This document shows, piece by piece, positions 993 to 47,078 of a stretch of 64,000 nt of DNA. Numbering within the stretch: the first letter of the stretch is position 1; every line of letters begins with the position of its first letter. The notes below the pieces were generated by a model. The model did not search any database. It was not told the origin of the DNA and saw only the letters and a list, made by a program, of their open reading frames with translations. Source of the stretch: Clostridia bacterium (GTDB taxonomy: Bacteria > Bacillota > Clostridia > Peptostreptococcales > Acidaminobacteraceae); NCBI GenBank assembly GCA_014859095.1, contig JACUUV010000007.1:1-64000 (forward strand), in the 5' to 3' direction. The position numbers and the translations under genes are program-made.

Positions 993-1907
993 TCACATTC
1001 TTAAGTCACCAATCAGGGTGTTGAAGTCCACGTGACCATAATGGCGCATGTAGTCTTCGATACCTTTTTTTATTTCCAGTGGTGCATATGGATTGGAAAA
1101 ATTTGCTGTCCCTATTGCAACAGCTGAAGCTCCAGCAAGGATAAACTCGATGGCATCCGTTGTGTTAGATATGCCTCCCATTCCCAGTACAGGAATTGAA
1201 ACTACCGAATGGACATCATAGACCATTTTTAGAGCTATCGGTTTGATTGCCGGTCCGGATAACCCACCACTGACTCTTTTTAAAAATGGTTTTCTGTTGT
1301 GTATATCTATTGCCATCCCAGCCATGGTGTTGATCAGCGAAATGCAGTCTGCACCTTCTTCTTCTGTAATTCTTGCGATTGTTTTTATATCCGTAACATT
1401 AGGTGATAATTTGACTATCAAGTGTTTCTTACAAGCCTTCCTAACTTTGGATACAACCTCTCTTACAATTTTGGGATTTGTACCAAAGGCAAGACCTCCA
1501 TTTTTCACATTTGGACACGAGATATTTAATTCAATTGAATCAACGTCTTCATCAGATAAGATTTTAGCCATCTTACAGTACTCATCAATTGTATTGCCAT
1601 TGATATTCGCTATGATTTTAGTATCGAATTGTCTTAAAAACGTAATTTCGTTTTCTATGAAAAATCGTATTCCAGGATTTTGGAGTCCAACACTGTTGAT
1701 CATCCCCATCGGTGTTTCCACCATTCTTCTGCCTTCGTTACCTTCTCTAGGTTCCAGCGTCAACCCTTTAACTGATATTGCACCAATTTGATTGAGATCA
1801 ATGATTTCAGAGTATTCACGTCCAAACCCGTAAGTGCCAGATGCAACAGTAATAGGATTGTTCAGAGTCAATCCGTTCAAATCCACTTTCATTTTCAGTT
1901 TATTCAT
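993..1907 (-). CDS. pyrD: dihydroorotate dehydrogenase B, catalytic subunit (PyrDB)
   Basis: Cytoplasmic FMN enzyme that oxidises dihydroorotate to orotate, step four of UMP synthesis. About 304 residues, a class 1B TIM barrel. NISCPNVKNGG carries the catalytic cysteine typical of class 1B, and the C-terminal GMGGI and AVAIGTANF segments bind the FMN phosphate. The start is ATG 1907 with GAGGTGAT upstream; TTG 1910 is an alternative. It overlaps the end of pyrK by 8 bases, suggesting translational coupling of the catalytic and electron-transfer subunits, which form a heterotetramer with NAD as acceptor. Last gene of the pyrC-pyrF-pyrK-pyrD operon. Confidence 0.95.
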   Translation of the reverse strand: MNKLKMKVDLNGLTLNNPITVASGTYGFGREYSEIIDLNQIGAISVKGLTLEPREGNEGRRMVETPMGMINSVGLQNPGIRFFIENEITFLRQFDTKIIANINGNTIDEYCKMAKILSDEDVDSIELNISCPNVKNGGLAFGTNPKIVREVVSKVRKACKKHLIVKLSPNVTDIKTIARITEEEGADCISLINTMAGMAIDIHNRKPFLKRVSGGLSGPAIKPIALKMVYDVHSVVSIPVLGMGGISNTTDAIEFILAGASAVAIGTANFSNPYAPLEIKKGIEDYMRHYGHVDFNTLIGDLRM

Positions 1908-2679
1908 CAAATATCACCTCATCAGAGTAGAACATCGGACCATCCTTGCACATCCTTGAATGTTTGAATCCGAAATCACCGTTCTTGGTTTTGCAGGTGC
2001 ATACTAAGCAAGCTCCTATGCCACAAGCCATTTTCTCTTCCATTAGAAGCTGTGCCCGAAACCCTTTACTATTGAATAAATCTGTCAGATTTTTCAACAT
2101 CGGATACGGCCCACACACATAAATCATGTCATACACTTCGGATTCCAGCATTTTTTTTACCGGGTCTGTGACATAACCTCTATTATACTGTTCATCGTTT
2201 TCCGATACGATTTCACAAATTGCTGAATTGGCCGCAAAGTCCTCATACAGATATGGCGCATCTCTGTATCCAAGCACCGAGTGAATCTCCACTTCCGTTT
2301 TTTTCAAACTATTGATCAGTCCTTTTAATGGTGCAATCCCAATACCACCACCAATCACAAGTATTTTTCGGTATCCACCGTATTCAAACCCGTTGCCTAG
2401 CGGTCCCATGAGTTCAACTGCTTCCCCTTCATTATAATCCAACATCGCCCTTGTGCCTTCGCCGATGATTTTGATGGTGAACTCAATTGTGTCCTCGCCC
2501 ACGTCACTCACTGATATCGGTCTTTTGAGCATTGGATATCCCACCTTGGAGGCGGATACATTAAAAAACTGGCCTGGATAGACGCATCCCATCTCATCGG
2601 ATCGTTTAATGACAAACCTGAAATTTTCTTCGTTGATAATCTGCTTTTTCAACAACTTTGCTTTACCGACAAATTTCAT
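1900..2679 (-). CDS. pyrK: dihydroorotate dehydrogenase B, electron-transfer subunit
   Basis: 259-residue ferredoxin-reductase-like subunit that moves electrons from FMN in PyrDB through a [2Fe-2S] cluster and FAD to NAD+. RPISVSD (about residues 53-59) belongs to the FAD-binding beta barrel, GGGIGIAPL to the NAD domain, and the C-terminal cluster motif has C219, C224, C227 and C244 (spacing 4, 2, 16). ATG start follows GGAGGCGCA. It lies 10 bases after pyrF and overlaps pyrD. Residues and neighbours agree, so the call is secure. Confidence 0.95.
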   Translation of the reverse strand: MKFVGKAKLLKKQIINEENFRFVIKRSDEMGCVYPGQFFNVSASKVGYPMLKRPISVSDVGEDTIEFTIKIIGEGTRAMLDYNEGEAVELMGPLGNGFEYGGYRKILVIGGGIGIAPLKGLINSLKKTEVEIHSVLGYRDAPYLYEDFAANSAICEIVSENDEQYNRGYVTDPVKKMLESEVYDMIYVCGPYPMLKNLTDLFNSKGFRAQLLMEEKMACGIGACLVCTCKTKNGDFGFKHSRMCKDGPMFYSDEVIFDE

Positions 2680-2689
2680 TGCGCCTCCT

Positions 2690-3616
2690 CTAATAATGGT
2701 TTCTTAAATTTTTCACTTCTTTCGCGATCGCCAATTTCATGTCAATGGTGGCTTTTTCCGCAGCACCTTTATAATCCCCGCCTTCTTTGATATAAGCGTA
2801 TAGTATTCCTCTGGAATTATTGATTAAAGCTCCAAGTCCATCGCCGTCAAAAGCTCCAACTATATCTCTCGCTCCCCCACCTTGAGCTCCATATCCTGGC
2901 ACAAGGAACATGGCTCTGGGCATTTTCTTACGCAGAAGCTCTAGCTCGGCAGGATAAGTTGCACCAACGACCGCACCGATGGAAGAATACCCACTGTTCC
3001 CAAAGTTTTTTTCTGACCAATGATTGACTATTCTTGCCACTTTCTCATACACTTTCTGGCCAGAAACGTCCAAATCTTGAATTTGTCCCGAGGTTTTATT
3101 GGATGTTTTCACCAGTATGAATATGCCTTTGTCATAGAGCTCAATCTCTTCCATGAATTCTTGCATGCAATCATCACCGAGATATGGATTGATTGTTGCG
3201 AAATCCACTTCAAATGTACTGATTTTTTTATTTCCTACAATGGCCTTTCCCAGATGTGCAATGGAATAGGCTTTCGATGTTGAACCGATATCGCCACGTT
3301 TCACATCCCCCACTACTATAAGTCCATTTTCTTTTGCATATTTACATGCATCTTGATAAGCAACCAATCCTTCAATTCCATATTGTTCATAAAATGCAAT
3401 TTGAGGCTTAACGGCAGGCACATGTGGTGCGACTGAATCAATTATGCCTCTATTGAATTCAATAATGGATTCTGAAACAGCTTTAAGAGTTTCACCATAT
3501 GTTTTGAAATGCTTATTTCTTATATCTTCAGGAATCATGTCCAGTCTCGGGTCTAATCCGACTACTATCGGACTTTCTTTTTTGATGATTTCACCTATCA
3601 AGCGATCACTTAACAT
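2690..3616 (-). CDS. pyrF: orotidine 5'-phosphate decarboxylase, type 2
   Basis: Catalyses OMP to UMP, the last step of the pathway. 308 residues, longer than the Bacillus type (about 240), as expected for the type 2 family. The catalytic DxKxxD appears as D104-K106-D109 in GDVKRGDIGST; FLVPGYGAQGG near the C-terminus binds phosphate. I use ATG 3616, preceded by GGAGGAGA; a longer upstream reading overlaps pyrC further and has no binding site. It overlaps the 3' end of pyrC by 11 bases and is followed after 10 bases by pyrK. Confidence 0.95.
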   Translation of the reverse strand: MLSDRLIGEIIKKESPIVVGLDPRLDMIPEDIRNKHFKTYGETLKAVSESIIEFNRGIIDSVAPHVPAVKPQIAFYEQYGIEGLVAYQDACKYAKENGLIVVGDVKRGDIGSTSKAYSIAHLGKAIVGNKKISTFEVDFATINPYLGDDCMQEFMEEIELYDKGIFILVKTSNKTSGQIQDLDVSGQKVYEKVARIVNHWSEKNFGNSGYSSIGAVVGATYPAELELLRKKMPRAMFLVPGYGAQGGGARDIVGAFDGDGLGALINNSRGILYAYIKEGGDYKGAAEKATIDMKLAIAKEVKNLRNHY

Positions 3617-4886
3617 ATTTCTCCTCCACACTCGAATTTGAGAATACAATCTCACCTCTAAAAATTGTCATTACCACACCACCATTAAAAGTCATTCCAT
3701 CAAAAGGTGTATTCTTGCCTTTGGAAATAAAATTTTGAGCTTCAATGCATTTTTTTTCATTCAAGTCCACAAGTACAACATCAGCATCATATCCCGATTG
3801 AATGGACCCGGCTCTTCTAATTTTCGCTATTTCAGCTGGTTTCGAAGTCATCATGCTTATGAGCCTCATAAGTGGTATTCCCTCGTTTTTCACCAGTGTT
3901 GTGTATGCAATTGAGAAAGCCGTTTCAATGCCACTTATTCCGAATGCGGCTTTTTCATAATTCCCCGATTTAACTTCGTTTTCATGTGGTGCGTGGTCTG
4001 TTGCTATGATATCAATCGTCCCATCTGCTATCCCTTTGACCAAAGCTTTGCGATGGACTTCACCTCTGATGGGTGGATTTACTTTTGCTGATGGACTTAG
4101 GACGTTCACCATCTCATCATTTAGCGCAAAATGATGTGGCGCTGCTTCACAGGTGACATTTACGCCATCCCTTTTGGCTTTTCTGATGGCTTCGATTGCA
4201 TCCACTCCACTGACATGTGCAACATGGAGCCTACCATTTGATTTATTGCACAGCTCAATATCTCTCATGACGATTGATGTTTCAGCTTCAATTGGATATA
4301 CCGTATCTATGAAACGACTAGAGACATCATGGTCTTCTGAATGAGTTATGATCAGTCCATCAAATTTTTTTGCATTTTCGAACGCCTCAGTCATCAATTT
4401 AGGGTTCATAGTGGTTCGACCGTCATCTGAAATCGCAAATACCCCCTGATTAAAAAACCCTTCGTGATCGGTTAGGAATTCACCCTTGATGTCATGAGTT
4501 ATGGCGCATATGGGCAGTATATTAATTACCGAATCCTTTTTTATAATGTCCCTAAGTATTCCTAGATTTTCAATCGAGTCGATTACCGGCTTTGTATTAG
4601 GCATACAAGCTACTGTTGTATACCCCCCTTTTGCACAGGCCATTGTTCCTGTTTTGATGGTTTCTTTATTTTCGAATCCTGGTTCTCTCAGATGGACATG
4701 TAAATCGATAAAGCCCGGAAAAACACTTTTTCCTGTTGCATCAATAACGGCATCATAATCCGTAACATCCAATTTTCCTTGTTCAACTACTGCTTGAATA
4801 ACCGGGCCATCAATCAGAATATCATAATAGCCTTCAAGTTCAGTAATTGGATCCATCAAGTATCCACCTTTGATCGCTTTTCTCAT
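3606..4886 (-). CDS. pyrC: dihydroorotase
   Basis: 426-residue zinc amidohydrolase that closes carbamoyl-aspartate to dihydroorotate. The metal motif HVHLRE has H63 and H65, and T296-D-H-A-P-H301 carries the catalytic Asp297. This matches the type I dihydroorotases of Gram-positive bacteria. Start ATG 4886 is set by GGGAGGAATT directly upstream. First gene of the minus pyr operon, behind a promoter at 5004-5032, a PyrR-box-like stem-loop and an intrinsic terminator at 4897-4928. Expression is therefore probably controlled by attenuation. Confidence 0.95.
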   Translation of the reverse strand: MRKAIKGGYLMDPITELEGYYDILIDGPVIQAVVEQGKLDVTDYDAVIDATGKSVFPGFIDLHVHLREPGFENKETIKTGTMACAKGGYTTVACMPNTKPVIDSIENLGILRDIIKKDSVINILPICAITHDIKGEFLTDHEGFFNQGVFAISDDGRTTMNPKLMTEAFENAKKFDGLIITHSEDHDVSSRFIDTVYPIEAETSIVMRDIELCNKSNGRLHVAHVSGVDAIEAIRKAKRDGVNVTCEAAPHHFALNDEMVNVLSPSAKVNPPIRGEVHRKALVKGIADGTIDIIATDHAPHENEVKSGNYEKAAFGISGIETAFSIAYTTLVKNEGIPLMRLISMMTSKPAEIAKIRRAGSIQSGYDADVVLVDLNEKKCIEAQNFISKGKNTPFDGMTFNGGVVMTIFRGEIVFSNSSVEEKYVK

Positions 4887-4896
4887 AATTCCTCCC

Positions 4897-4928
4897 AAAA
4901 AAAAATGTCCTGGCACCCGCCAAGACAT
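4897..4928 (-). terminator. leader terminator (attenuator) of the pyrC operon
   Basis: On the minus strand a 10-bp stem (arms 4919-4928 and 4905-4914, one G-U pair) with loop GGGT is followed by an eight-to-nine T run and then the pyrC ribosome binding site. It lies between the promoter and the first gene, so it acts as an attenuator rather than as an end-of-operon terminator. Confidence 0.85.
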
Positions 4929-4956
4929 AGAACTATCGCACTAATTCATATTTCTT

Positions 4957-4988
4957 GCCTTGCAGGTCTCTCGTACCAAATTAAAGGC
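4957..4988 (-). promoter_or_regulatory. PyrR-box-like stem-loop in the pyrC leader
   Basis: The minus leader folds with lower stem GCCTT/AAGGC (4984-4988 with 4957-4961), an asymmetric internal loop, and a short upper stem GGT/ACC closing a loop that contains CGAGAG. It shares CCTTTAATTTG and CGAGAG with the pyrB leader on the other strand. PyrR binds such a loop (consensus CCNGNGAGGY). This copy is the weaker match because the bases flanking CGAGAG differ. Confidence 0.65.
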
Positions 4989-5003
4989 TTATTGATTTTC
5001 TTA

Positions 5004-5032
5004 AATCTATCACAGCAGCCAAACTCTGTCAA
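5004..5032 (-). promoter_or_regulatory. promoter of the pyrC-pyrF-pyrK-pyrD operon
   Basis: TTGACA (5027-5032), 17-base spacer, TAGATT (5004-5009) with a TG one base upstream. It lies back to back with the pyrB promoter; the two -35 boxes are 14 bases apart. Confidence 0.8.
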
Positions 5033-5046
5033 GATTCATTTTTGTG

Positions 5047-5076
5047 TTGACCTGTTATTCGTACTTGTGGTATGAT
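5047..5076 (+). promoter_or_regulatory. promoter of pyrB-pyrI
   Basis: TTGACC (5047-5052), 18-base spacer, TATGAT (5071-5076) with extended -10 TG at 5068-5069. The predicted start is about 5083, just before the PyrR-box-like element. Confidence 0.8.
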
Positions 5077-5094
5077 GATTGCGACAATTGAATA

Positions 5095-5125
5095 CCCTTT
5101 AATTTGACCCGAGAGGTCGAAAAGG
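5095..5125 (+). promoter_or_regulatory. PyrR-box-like anti-antiterminator in the pyrB leader
   Basis: Lower stem CCTTT/AAAGG (5096-5100 with 5121-5125), internal loop, upper stem GACC/GGTC (5106-5109 with 5115-5118), loop CGAGA. CCCGAGAGGT (5108-5117) matches the PyrR consensus CCNGNGAGGY at every position. The 3' half (CGA, GTCG and AAGG within 5110-5125) can instead pair with TCG, CGAC and CCTT of the following terminator, giving the mutually exclusive antiterminator expected for PyrR control. No pyrR gene lies in the window. Confidence 0.8.
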
Positions 5126-5160
5126 AATAAAAATAACTGGACAATGTTTCAGCTTATAAT

Positions 5161-5188
5161 ACCTTCGCGACTCGGCGAAGGTTTTTTT
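5161..5188 (+). terminator. leader terminator (attenuator) of pyrB
   Basis: Perfect 8-bp stem ACCTTCGC/GCGAAGGT (5161-5168 with 5175-5182), loop GACTCG, then a T run to 5188. It lies 46 bases before the pyrB start codon. Confidence 0.9.
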
Positions 5189-5233
5189 ATTTCTTACTTT
5201 AAGATGATTCTGAGAAATCAAAAGGAGGATAAC

Positions 5234-6163
5234 ATGAGACATGTGATTGAACCAGAGGATTTGACACTAGACGAAATCCTTGAGCTTGTTGACATGGGTC
5301 TTAGTATGTATGAGGATCCAAAACCTTATTCCAAGGTTTGTGACGGAAAAATCTTGGCTTCACTTTTCTTTGAGCCTAGCACACGTACAAAGTTCAGTTT
5401 TGATAGCGCAATGATGCGACTTGGCGGAAATGTAATAGGCTTTTCCGATGCGGATACCACTTCGGCAAAAAAGGGAGAAAGTCTTGCGGATACCATCAGA
5501 GTTATGGGGTTTTACTCCGATATCGTCGTTATGCGTCATCCTAAAGAAGGCGCTCCGAAGCTCGCAGCAGAGTATTCAAGCGTTCCCATCATCAACGGTG
5601 GAGATGGAGGTCATCAGCATCCGACTCAGACGCTTACGGATTTGATTACAATCAAAAGATTTAAAGGGACTGTTGAAGGGCATAATGTCGCATTCTGTGG
5701 AGATTTGAAATACGGAAGGACAGTCCATTCACTAATCAGAACTCTAGCTCGCTTTGGCAGCAAAAAATTCTACCTGATCTCACCTGATGAACTCAAGTTG
5801 CCTTCGGCGCTCAAAAGACAACTTACAGAAAAATATGGCGTTGAACTGGTTGAAGTCAATTATACGGAAGATGTCATCGATGACATCGATGTGTTTTATA
5901 TGACCCGTATCCAAAAAGAAAGATTCTTCAATGAAGCGGATTATCTCAAATTGAAGAATTCATTTAAACTCACACGTGAAAAACTGAAGAACGCAAAGAG
6001 AGATATGATTGTCATGCACCCCCTACCACGTGTCAACGAAATTGATTATGATGTAGACGAAGATCCAAGAGCTGTTTATTTTGAACAATCAGAAATGGGT
6101 GTATACGTCAGAATGGCATTGATTACAAAATTACTGGAGGTGGGTCCATATGCTAGAAGTTAA
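5234..6163 (+). CDS. pyrB: aspartate carbamoyltransferase, catalytic chain
   Basis: 309 residues, the normal length. Joins carbamoyl phosphate and aspartate to carbamoyl-aspartate. The carbamoyl-phosphate loop FFEPSTRTKFSF (S49-T52) and the HPTQTLTDL and HPLPR motifs are all present. Start ATG 5234 follows AAAGGAGGAT; reading from an upstream ATG at 5144 would run through the attenuator and is rejected. It overlaps pyrI by 14 bases. The adjacent regulatory-chain gene suggests an E. coli-like allosteric holoenzyme rather than the Bacillus trimer. Confidence 0.96.
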   Translation: MRHVIEPEDLTLDEILELVDMGLSMYEDPKPYSKVCDGKILASLFFEPSTRTKFSFDSAMMRLGGNVIGFSDADTTSAKKGESLADTIRVMGFYSDIVVMRHPKEGAPKLAAEYSSVPIINGGDGGHQHPTQTLTDLITIKRFKGTVEGHNVAFCGDLKYGRTVHSLIRTLARFGSKKFYLISPDELKLPSALKRQLTEKYGVELVEVNYTEDVIDDIDVFYMTRIQKERFFNEADYLKLKNSFKLTREKLKNAKRDMIVMHPLPRVNEIDYDVDEDPRAVYFEQSEMGVYVRMALITKLLEVGPYARS

Positions 6164-6578
6164 AGGAATTGAAAACGGTATTGTCATCGACCACATGAAA
6201 GCCGGAAACGGTTTGAAAATTTTCAACTTGCTTTTTTCCAATATTGAACATCCGGTTGTATTGCTCATGAATGTCAAGAGCGACCAATTGGGCAAAAAGG
6301 ACATTATAAAAGTGGAAAACACTTTTGATGTGGATATGAGCTTATTAGGTCTTGTGGATCAAAGCATCACCGTCAATACCATCAAGAATAATATGCTAGT
6401 GGACAAAAGAAAAGTGGAGATTCCAAAAACACTGACAGGAGGCATCAAATGCCAAAATCCACGTTGCATCACTCACAGTGACGACTATGCGATCCCAACA
6501 TTCACTTTGCTAAAATCAAACGGCAAACTTGAATACGAATGCAACTACTGTGAAGAAATCACAGTATATAAATTGTAG
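6150..6578 (+). CDS. pyrI: aspartate carbamoyltransferase, regulatory chain
   Basis: 142-residue non-catalytic chain. The N-terminal part (1-95) is the nucleotide-binding allosteric domain. The C-terminal zinc domain has C101, C106, C131 and C134, which join it to PyrB. ATG 6150 follows GGAGGTGGGTCC inside pyrB, so the two chains are translationally coupled. PyrI is absent from Bacillus but found in several clostridia. It is closed by a plus-strand terminator at 6591-6623. Confidence 0.95.
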   Translation: MLEVKGIENGIVIDHMKAGNGLKIFNLLFSNIEHPVVLLMNVKSDQLGKKDIIKVENTFDVDMSLLGLVDQSITVNTIKNNMLVDKRKVEIPKTLTGGIKCQNPRCITHSDDYAIPTFTLLKSNGKLEYECNYCEEITVYKL

Positions 6579-26370: not shown

Positions 26371-26769
26371 TTACCATACGTAGCAAATCACTTCGCCACC
26401 AACGCCAAGTTTTCTAGCTTCTCTGTCAGTTATAATGCCATTCGAAGTAGAAATTATCGCACAACCTAATCCGCCTAGTACCTTAGGGATATCAGTTCTC
26501 TTAGCATATACTCTCAAGCCTGGCTTGGAAATACGCTTTAATCCAGTGATAACACGTTCTTTGTTCTCACCGTATTTTAGTTCGATTCTGATGAGGCCTT
26601 GTTTGCCATCTTCAATCACATCGAAACCTTTAATGTAGCCCTCTTCTAAAAGGATCTCTACAATTTTTGTTTTAACATTTGATGCTGGTATATCTACTGA
26701 TGTATGTTTTACCATATTCGCATTACGTACACGCGTCAGTAAATCAGCAATTGGATCTGTCATTGCCAT
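26371..26769 (-). CDS. rpsH: 30S ribosomal protein S8
   Basis: 132 residues. [14 protein letters not shown] at the N-terminus and [11 protein letters not shown] at the C-terminus are typical. Central-domain 16S rRNA binder; in E. coli it represses the spc operon. ATG 26769 has GGAGG nine bases upstream, so MAMTD is the likely start. Confidence 0.98.
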
Positions 26770-46896: not shown

Positions 46897-46914
46897 TTGT
46901 CCACCTCCTTGTGC

Positions 46915-47022
46915 ATAATAAAACCTCTCTTCCGTAGACAAGAGAGGTTACAATTTATTTTACAATAAATCATTTATCCTTACCTCGGTAGGAAATTAAG
47001 CGTTAGCACCTACTGTCTACGG
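46915..47022 (-). promoter_or_regulatory. ribosomal L10 leader (attenuation element)
   Basis: The 108-base leader starts CCGTAGACAGTAGGTGC, has the internal CTTAATTTCCTACCGAGG, and ends with a 9-bp hairpin (46941-46949 with 46922-46930) followed by a short T-rich run. CCGTAGACA (47014-47022) can pair with TGTCTACGG in the loop of that hairpin (46932-46940). These features match the known L10 leader; L10-L12 binding there regulates rplJ-rplL. Confidence 0.9.
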
Positions 47023-47078
47023 TTTATTTACAACATTTAGAACAAAACAATTCTACCAGAGAACTATTGCTTTGTCAA

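Follow-up and report, generated by a model that had tools for sequence, protein, structure and literature searches.

Do two halves of a biosynthetic pathway that are transcribed away from a common gap answer to one regulator, and would they answer alike? The question is raised by a Fusibacter-like bacterium (by PyrB comparison within the collection searched, two MAG lineages are 94% identical, and the nearest named relatives are Fusibacter species at 83–85%), from which we analysed a single stretch of 64,000 nucleotides, here called the window. Within it, a 347-bp gap containing two leaders and two promoter-like sites separates pyrBI on the plus strand from pyrCFKD on the minus strand. PyrR is the textbook RNA-binding regulator here, described for the most part in two roles: attenuation in Bacillus, and repression of translation in mycobacteria. 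We propose, with good confidence, that this is a PyrR-controlled divergent pyr locus with three PyrR-type RNA boxes, two of them in attenuators and one on the Shine–Dalgarno (SD) sequence of pyrB. The genes and promoter-like sites are as follows.

993..1910, minus strand: pyrD, dihydroorotate dehydrogenase (NF005574, above cut-off)
1900..2679, minus strand: pyrK, dihydroorotate dehydrogenase electron-transfer subunit (NF000798, E 1.5e-59, 201.6 bits; cut-off 219)
2690..3655, minus strand: listed open reading frame of pyrF, orotidine-5'-phosphate decarboxylase, type 2 (TIGR02127, above cut-off); the true start is probably downstream of 3655
3606..4886, minus strand: pyrC, dihydroorotase (TIGR00857, above cut-off)
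5004..5032, minus strand: promoter-like site of pyrCFKD (consensus scan: TTGACA at 5032, 17-nt spacing, TAGATT at 5004)
5047..5076, plus strand: promoter-like site of pyrBI (consensus scan: TTGACC at 5047, 18-nt spacing, TATGAT at 5076)
5234..6163, plus strand: pyrB, aspartate carbamoyltransferase catalytic subunit (TIGR00670, above cut-off)
6150..6578, plus strand: pyrI, aspartate carbamoyltransferase regulatory subunit (top NCBIfam match NF002063, E 2e-48, 163.5 bits; cut-off 171)

Reading of the sequence puts the pyrC start at the ATG at 4886, with GGGAGG as its SD. A preliminary description of this DNA had two divergent promoters with −35 boxes 14 nt apart, and sites of that form are indeed present; their number, however, does not exceed chance (two seen against a mean of 2.3 in shuffled sequence), so that the promoters are called by position.

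The same description had two divergent pyr operons, each with a PyrR-type attenuator. Both leaders contain the parts of a PyrR binding loop (lower stem, internal bulge, upper stem and GNGA-type loop), and both contain an intrinsic terminator.

4897..4928, minus strand: pyrC-leader intrinsic terminator, whose 5' arm UGUCUUGGCGGGU is the antiterminator partner of the loop's 3' half
4956..4989, minus strand: PyrR-type binding loop of the pyrC attenuator, pentaloop CGAGA, A·G closing mismatch (R1 20.1 bits, E 0.007)
5094..5127, plus strand: PyrR-type binding loop (anti-antiterminator) of the pyrB attenuator, pentaloop CGAGA (R1 33.7 bits, E 2e-6)
5161..5189, plus strand: pyrB-leader intrinsic terminator, whose 5' arm ACCUUCGCGACUC is the antiterminator partner of the loop's 3' half

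The boxes read CCTTTAATTTGACCCGAGAGGTCGAAAAGG (pyrB, 5096–5125, plus strand) and CCTTTAATTTGGTACGAGAGACCTGCAAGG (pyrC, 4987–4958, minus strand). Their scores come from R1, a binding-loop model of 35 positions whose training set was limited to pyrB attenuator boxes from outside the Fusibacter lineage; in its alignment the upper stem covaries. Because the two boxes are the top two R1 matches across the whole 64-kb window, searched with filters off, we take both to be real; genome-wide, R1 finds one further strong match, the carAB leader. Three other hits were discarded: an R1 match at window position 26625, probably within a coding region, and an OmrA-B match in the Rfam scan (E 0.34), both as chance, and a pattern match (L006, GAGAGATTGAAAAGG) inside an unrelated open reading frame. 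Two intrinsic terminators, placed by the scan at 4928–4905 on the minus strand and 5161–5182 on the plus strand, were found in the region where 0.3 would be expected; terminators lie downstream of the box in most family members examined, and attenuator boxes and terminators alike are conserved in relatives. Rfam model RF00515 aligns at full length to the pyrB leader (5092–5191, 41.4 bits, E 3e-4) and to the pyrC leader (4991–4898, 28.6 bits, E 0.08), neither of which reaches its gathering score of 54 bits, a threshold that reflects curation and is not a biochemical feature. Elsewhere in the window, at 46909–47040 on the minus strand, lies an ordinary ribosomal protein L10 leader (RF00557, 82.7 bits).

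The genome also encodes the regulator. Adjoining an rluD-like gene at C28:13001–13528 is pyrR, whose product of 178 residues is 62% identical to B. subtilis PyrR and matches an NCBIfam equivalog. The gene is present in 31 of 41 family genomes. No box was found upstream of pyrB in the four relatives that lack a detectable pyrR (86–95% complete), a negative control of four genomes, one of which is only 86% complete; genomes that have boxes but in which pyrR was undetected are 62–77% complete. The preliminary description had staked its attenuators on a pyrR gene in the genome and on covariation of the stems among relatives; the gene is there, the upper stems covary, and together with the boxes, the terminators and their conservation these results bear out a PyrR-type attenuator before each operon.

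It strikes us as very improbable that the leaders answer not to PyrR but to, for example, UTP-sensitive transcription, translation of the leader or a different RNA-binding protein. That alternative could draw on two open frames, one leading in frame into pyrB (from 5144) and the other into pyrC (from 4928), and on the allosteric PyrI encoded at the locus, which implies that other nucleotide sensing exists; yet the loops have PyrR recognition features, pyrR is present, and the boxes are missing from the four pyrR-less relatives checked. Leader translation from the two open frames was rejected, as reading of the sequence finds no SD near either upstream start codon and many relatives have only a short open frame around pyrB.

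With PyrR as the preferred regulator, the two attenuator boxes differ from one another in ways that had been put down to decay. The pyrB box had been matched to the PyrR consensus at all ten core positions, which is imprecise in that the loop in the window has five nucleotides (CGAGA) and the consensus loop six (CNGNGA). The pyrC copy had been called degenerate, in keeping with its R1 score and its A·G closing mismatch; its form, GTACGAGA, is nonetheless conserved throughout the family, with A·G or A-U at the closing position among relatives, and for that reason we regard it as a distinct version of the box and not as a decaying copy. A recent duplication of the pyrB leader, followed by drift and loss of regulation on the pyrC side, would account for the CCTTTAATTTG and CGAGAG common to both window boxes, but we read the shared CCTTTAA and GAGA letters as the most conserved positions of PyrR boxes. 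Moreover, pyrC-type and pyrB-type boxes are conserved separately through the family and are distinct in outgroups (in Fusibacter, Anaerosolibacter, Thermotalea and Geosporobacter the two types are already distinct and separately conserved), and the pyrC leader retains a strong terminator as well as an antiterminator, the latter changing along with the box. The proposal of leader duplication and drift is thus scarcely credible to us, a judgement drawn from conservation, as a tree of 30-nt boxes cannot resolve the matter further.

Folding bears directly on how the two leaders would switch. In constrained ViennaRNA folds with soft penalties, run on transcripts truncated before the terminator 3' arm and on full leaders, the truncated pyrC transcript pairs ACCUGCAAGGCA-AGAA with UUCU-UGUCUUGG-CGGGU, giving an antiterminator of −20.5 kcal/mol against −13.6 when the PyrR loop is kept; the pyrC antiterminator, once thought unclear, is in fact a clear one. 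The truncated pyrB leader is balanced (antiterminator −14.5, PyrR loop −14.4 kcal/mol), and at full length both leaders favour loop plus terminator. Relative to shuffles of the 3' half, the gain in antiterminator pairing is better than 291 of 300 for pyrC (9/300 as good) and marginal for pyrB, better than 273 of 300 (27/300 as good), so an antiterminator that competes with loop and terminator is clear in pyrC and marginal in pyrB; the pairing of the pyrB box's 3' half with the terminator arm, noted earlier, is seen in the folds with that weak gain. The competing pairings recur in most relatives, and the pyrC terminator arm varies with the box (by reading, ACCUGC/GCAGGU in Fusibacter and GCGAAGG/ACUUCGC in locus L031). 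Since the folds give the pyrC leader the stronger antiterminator, pyrC should resist shut-off more than pyrB, a model-based expectation to be set beside the finding that the pyrC antiterminator is the stronger in only 10 of 15 relatives.

A third box had gone unnoticed, the interval of the preliminary description (4897–5188) ending just short of it.

5194..5228, plus strand: third PyrR-type box (SD-box), lower stem CUUU/AAAG, loop CUGAGA (R2 32.3 bits)

Its sequence, TTACTTTAAGATGATTCTGAGAAATCAAAAGGAGG, follows directly on the U-run of the pyrB terminator, with the ATG 5 nt further on, and comprises the lower stem, a bulge, the upper stem UGAUU/AAUCA and the loop; RNAfold of 5196–5250 returns a hairpin of this form. 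The lower-stem strand AAGG is also the first half of the pyrB SD, AAGGAGG, so that the ribosome-binding site is contained in a PyrR-type loop, as befits a site of PyrR translational repression. The scoring model R2, trained on 17 SD-boxes of equal length from other genera (set A4, which includes three same-family sequences), gives E 7e-6 in the window and 3.4e-4 in the bacterium's own genome. The same-length set was chosen because MAFFT misaligned the 3' arm when two box lengths were combined (set A2), where the upper stem alone was counted.

The SD-box was also compared across species. In a gapless alignment on the SD of nine Fusibacter-clade species, identity is 82% over the 26 nt preceding the SD and drops to 28–31% in windows further upstream, and the variable columns of the box include both N positions of CNGNGA. 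Two-sided changes in the upper stem number 41 over a set of 30 distinct boxes, where shuffles give 11.4 and slid registers stay far below the observed count, and in 46 of 49 loci the AAGG of the box runs on into AAGGAGG, with an in-frame start codon 4–8 nt later. The box search itself demanded at least three stem pairs plus the loop motif, which inflates the paired-cell percentages and affects the covariation controls less. Since an Acidaminobacter-like lineage keeps the attenuator with a plain SD that lacks the box, an SD alone does not force the box motif.

We think it unlikely that only the two attenuators matter and that the SD hairpin, whether a third box in decay or just an ordinary hairpin at a ribosome-binding site, has no PyrR function in this genus. 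Such a reading would fit the weak score under the attenuator-trained R1 (13.1 bits, E 0.43), the loss of the first lower-stem pair in the window (one pair, C to A) and a predicted stability of about −2 to −3 kcal/mol where other genera mostly have −5 to −9; a weak hairpin, however, is what a protein-dependent switch would need. Nine species retain the PyrR-specific letters (CUUUAA, CNGNGA and the flanking stem) even though identity in their spacer further upstream has fallen to about 30%, and a plain hairpin at a ribosome-binding site would have no need of CNGNGA.

A PyrR-type box on the SD is also common outside this bacterium. An attenuator is combined with an SD-box in 41 of 87 distinct pyrB upstream regions; 15 have an attenuator only and 8 an SD-box only, while in 12 an attenuator is accompanied by a box about 50 bases before the start; all three boxes occur in 15 family members. 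R2 matches were found in 39 of 196 sampled genomes of the class, and the loci fetched include 12 pyrB genes with a second box upstream, one uracil-permease-like gene and several leader peptides of 14–18 codons. It is fairly likely that in many Clostridia the pyrB mRNA is a two-stage PyrR device, the one regulator acting on RNA polymerase at the first stage and, on that same transcript, on the ribosome at the second.

Several arrangements turned up beside these. A PyrR-type box covers the SD of the uracil-permease-like gene (L146, about 1516; assigned by reading of the N-terminal sequence only). In L141–L143, L145, L150 and L152, PyrR-type SD-boxes precede open reading frames of 14–18 codons, mostly of 18 codons ending in Tyr-Gly, which are possible PyrR-controlled leader peptides. 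Where a second pyrB box lies some 50 nt ahead of the start (L069, L071, L073, L074, L077, L083, L084, L086–L089, L092, L093, L095, L098, L104), it ends in AAGGGAG, and in the cases read its 3' half can pair just downstream, for example GGCTAAA with TTTAGACT.

The carAB leader of the bacterium's own genome (L120 1495–1681, on contig C20 from 14670 onwards) has a PyrR-type box whose 3' arm is the SD AAAGAGG. That SD serves an open reading frame of 47 codons, which crosses the terminator and overlaps the start of carA at its end; in relatives the position of the frame's start after the box is kept, the frames having 19–58 codons. By its layout this leader looks like a case of coupled transcription–translation attenuation. 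In other genera of the family (L169, L170, L173–L175, L182, L184, L188) carA is preceded by a hairpin next to its SD, whose loop is of PyrR type (CGAGA, CAGTGA or CAGAGA) and whose lower stem resembles AATTA/TAATT in place of CCTT/AAGG.

How, then, would the pyr locus work? At high UMP, PyrR would hold the binding loop and thereby block the antiterminator, stopping both pyrBI and pyrCFKD early; on pyrB mRNA that had escaped termination, PyrR–UMP would clamp the weak SD hairpin and block ribosome loading. Having the SD-box in addition to its attenuator, pyrB, the committed step, would probably be repressed twice and pyrCFKD once. We infer from the sequences that PyrR binds all three RNAs with UMP as co-repressor, that occlusion of the SD lowers translation, and that pyrB may respond at lower UMP than pyrC. 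The earlier suggestion that the two halves of the pathway respond differently seems plausible in light of the A·G closing mismatch and stronger antiterminator of pyrC and of the additional SD-overlapping box that only pyrB has.

If true, a conserved series of both readouts would link the attenuation and translational-repression modes of PyrR, and one mode could turn into the other by the loss of one box; the Acidaminobacter-like lineage retains the attenuator only, and a few other loci the SD-box only. The locus would also offer a testable case of layered control over a committed step, that of aspartate carbamoyltransferase. For annotation, binding loops without an attenuator, or with a loop of 5 nt, escape the Rfam whole-leader model.

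Among known systems, the pyr leader of Thermus ZO5 combines PyrR with a leader peptide in coupled transcription–translation attenuation. The carAB leader of our bacterium resembles it in placing a box on the SD of a short open reading frame that crosses a terminator, but belongs to a different operon outside the window, within which no SD-equipped leader peptide was seen. Both modes of PyrR action are already known; what appears new is an attenuator and an SD-box in series on one mRNA, an arrangement for which our literature search returned no report, although the main reviews lay outside its coverage and an earlier description is possible. The pyr operon of B. subtilis is under PyrR attenuation at three regions with the consensus ARUCCAGAGAGGYU (PMC7430163), and the present locus shares with it the binding loop, an antiterminator overlapping the loop's 3' half, an intrinsic terminator and PyrR in the genome; it differs in having two divergent operons instead of one, a 5-nt loop (CGAGA) instead of the 6-nt CNGNGA, leader scores short of the Rfam cut-off, and an additional box at the pyrB SD. 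In Mycobacterium smegmatis, PyrR is reported to repress translation (Fields and Switzer 2007, as cited in PMC10672894 and PMC12369341). A PyrR-dependent block of translation is also what we propose for 5194–5228, with the difference that here the transcript has a PyrR attenuator ahead of the site, which would place the two readouts in series, and that the genome is clostridial, not actinobacterial.
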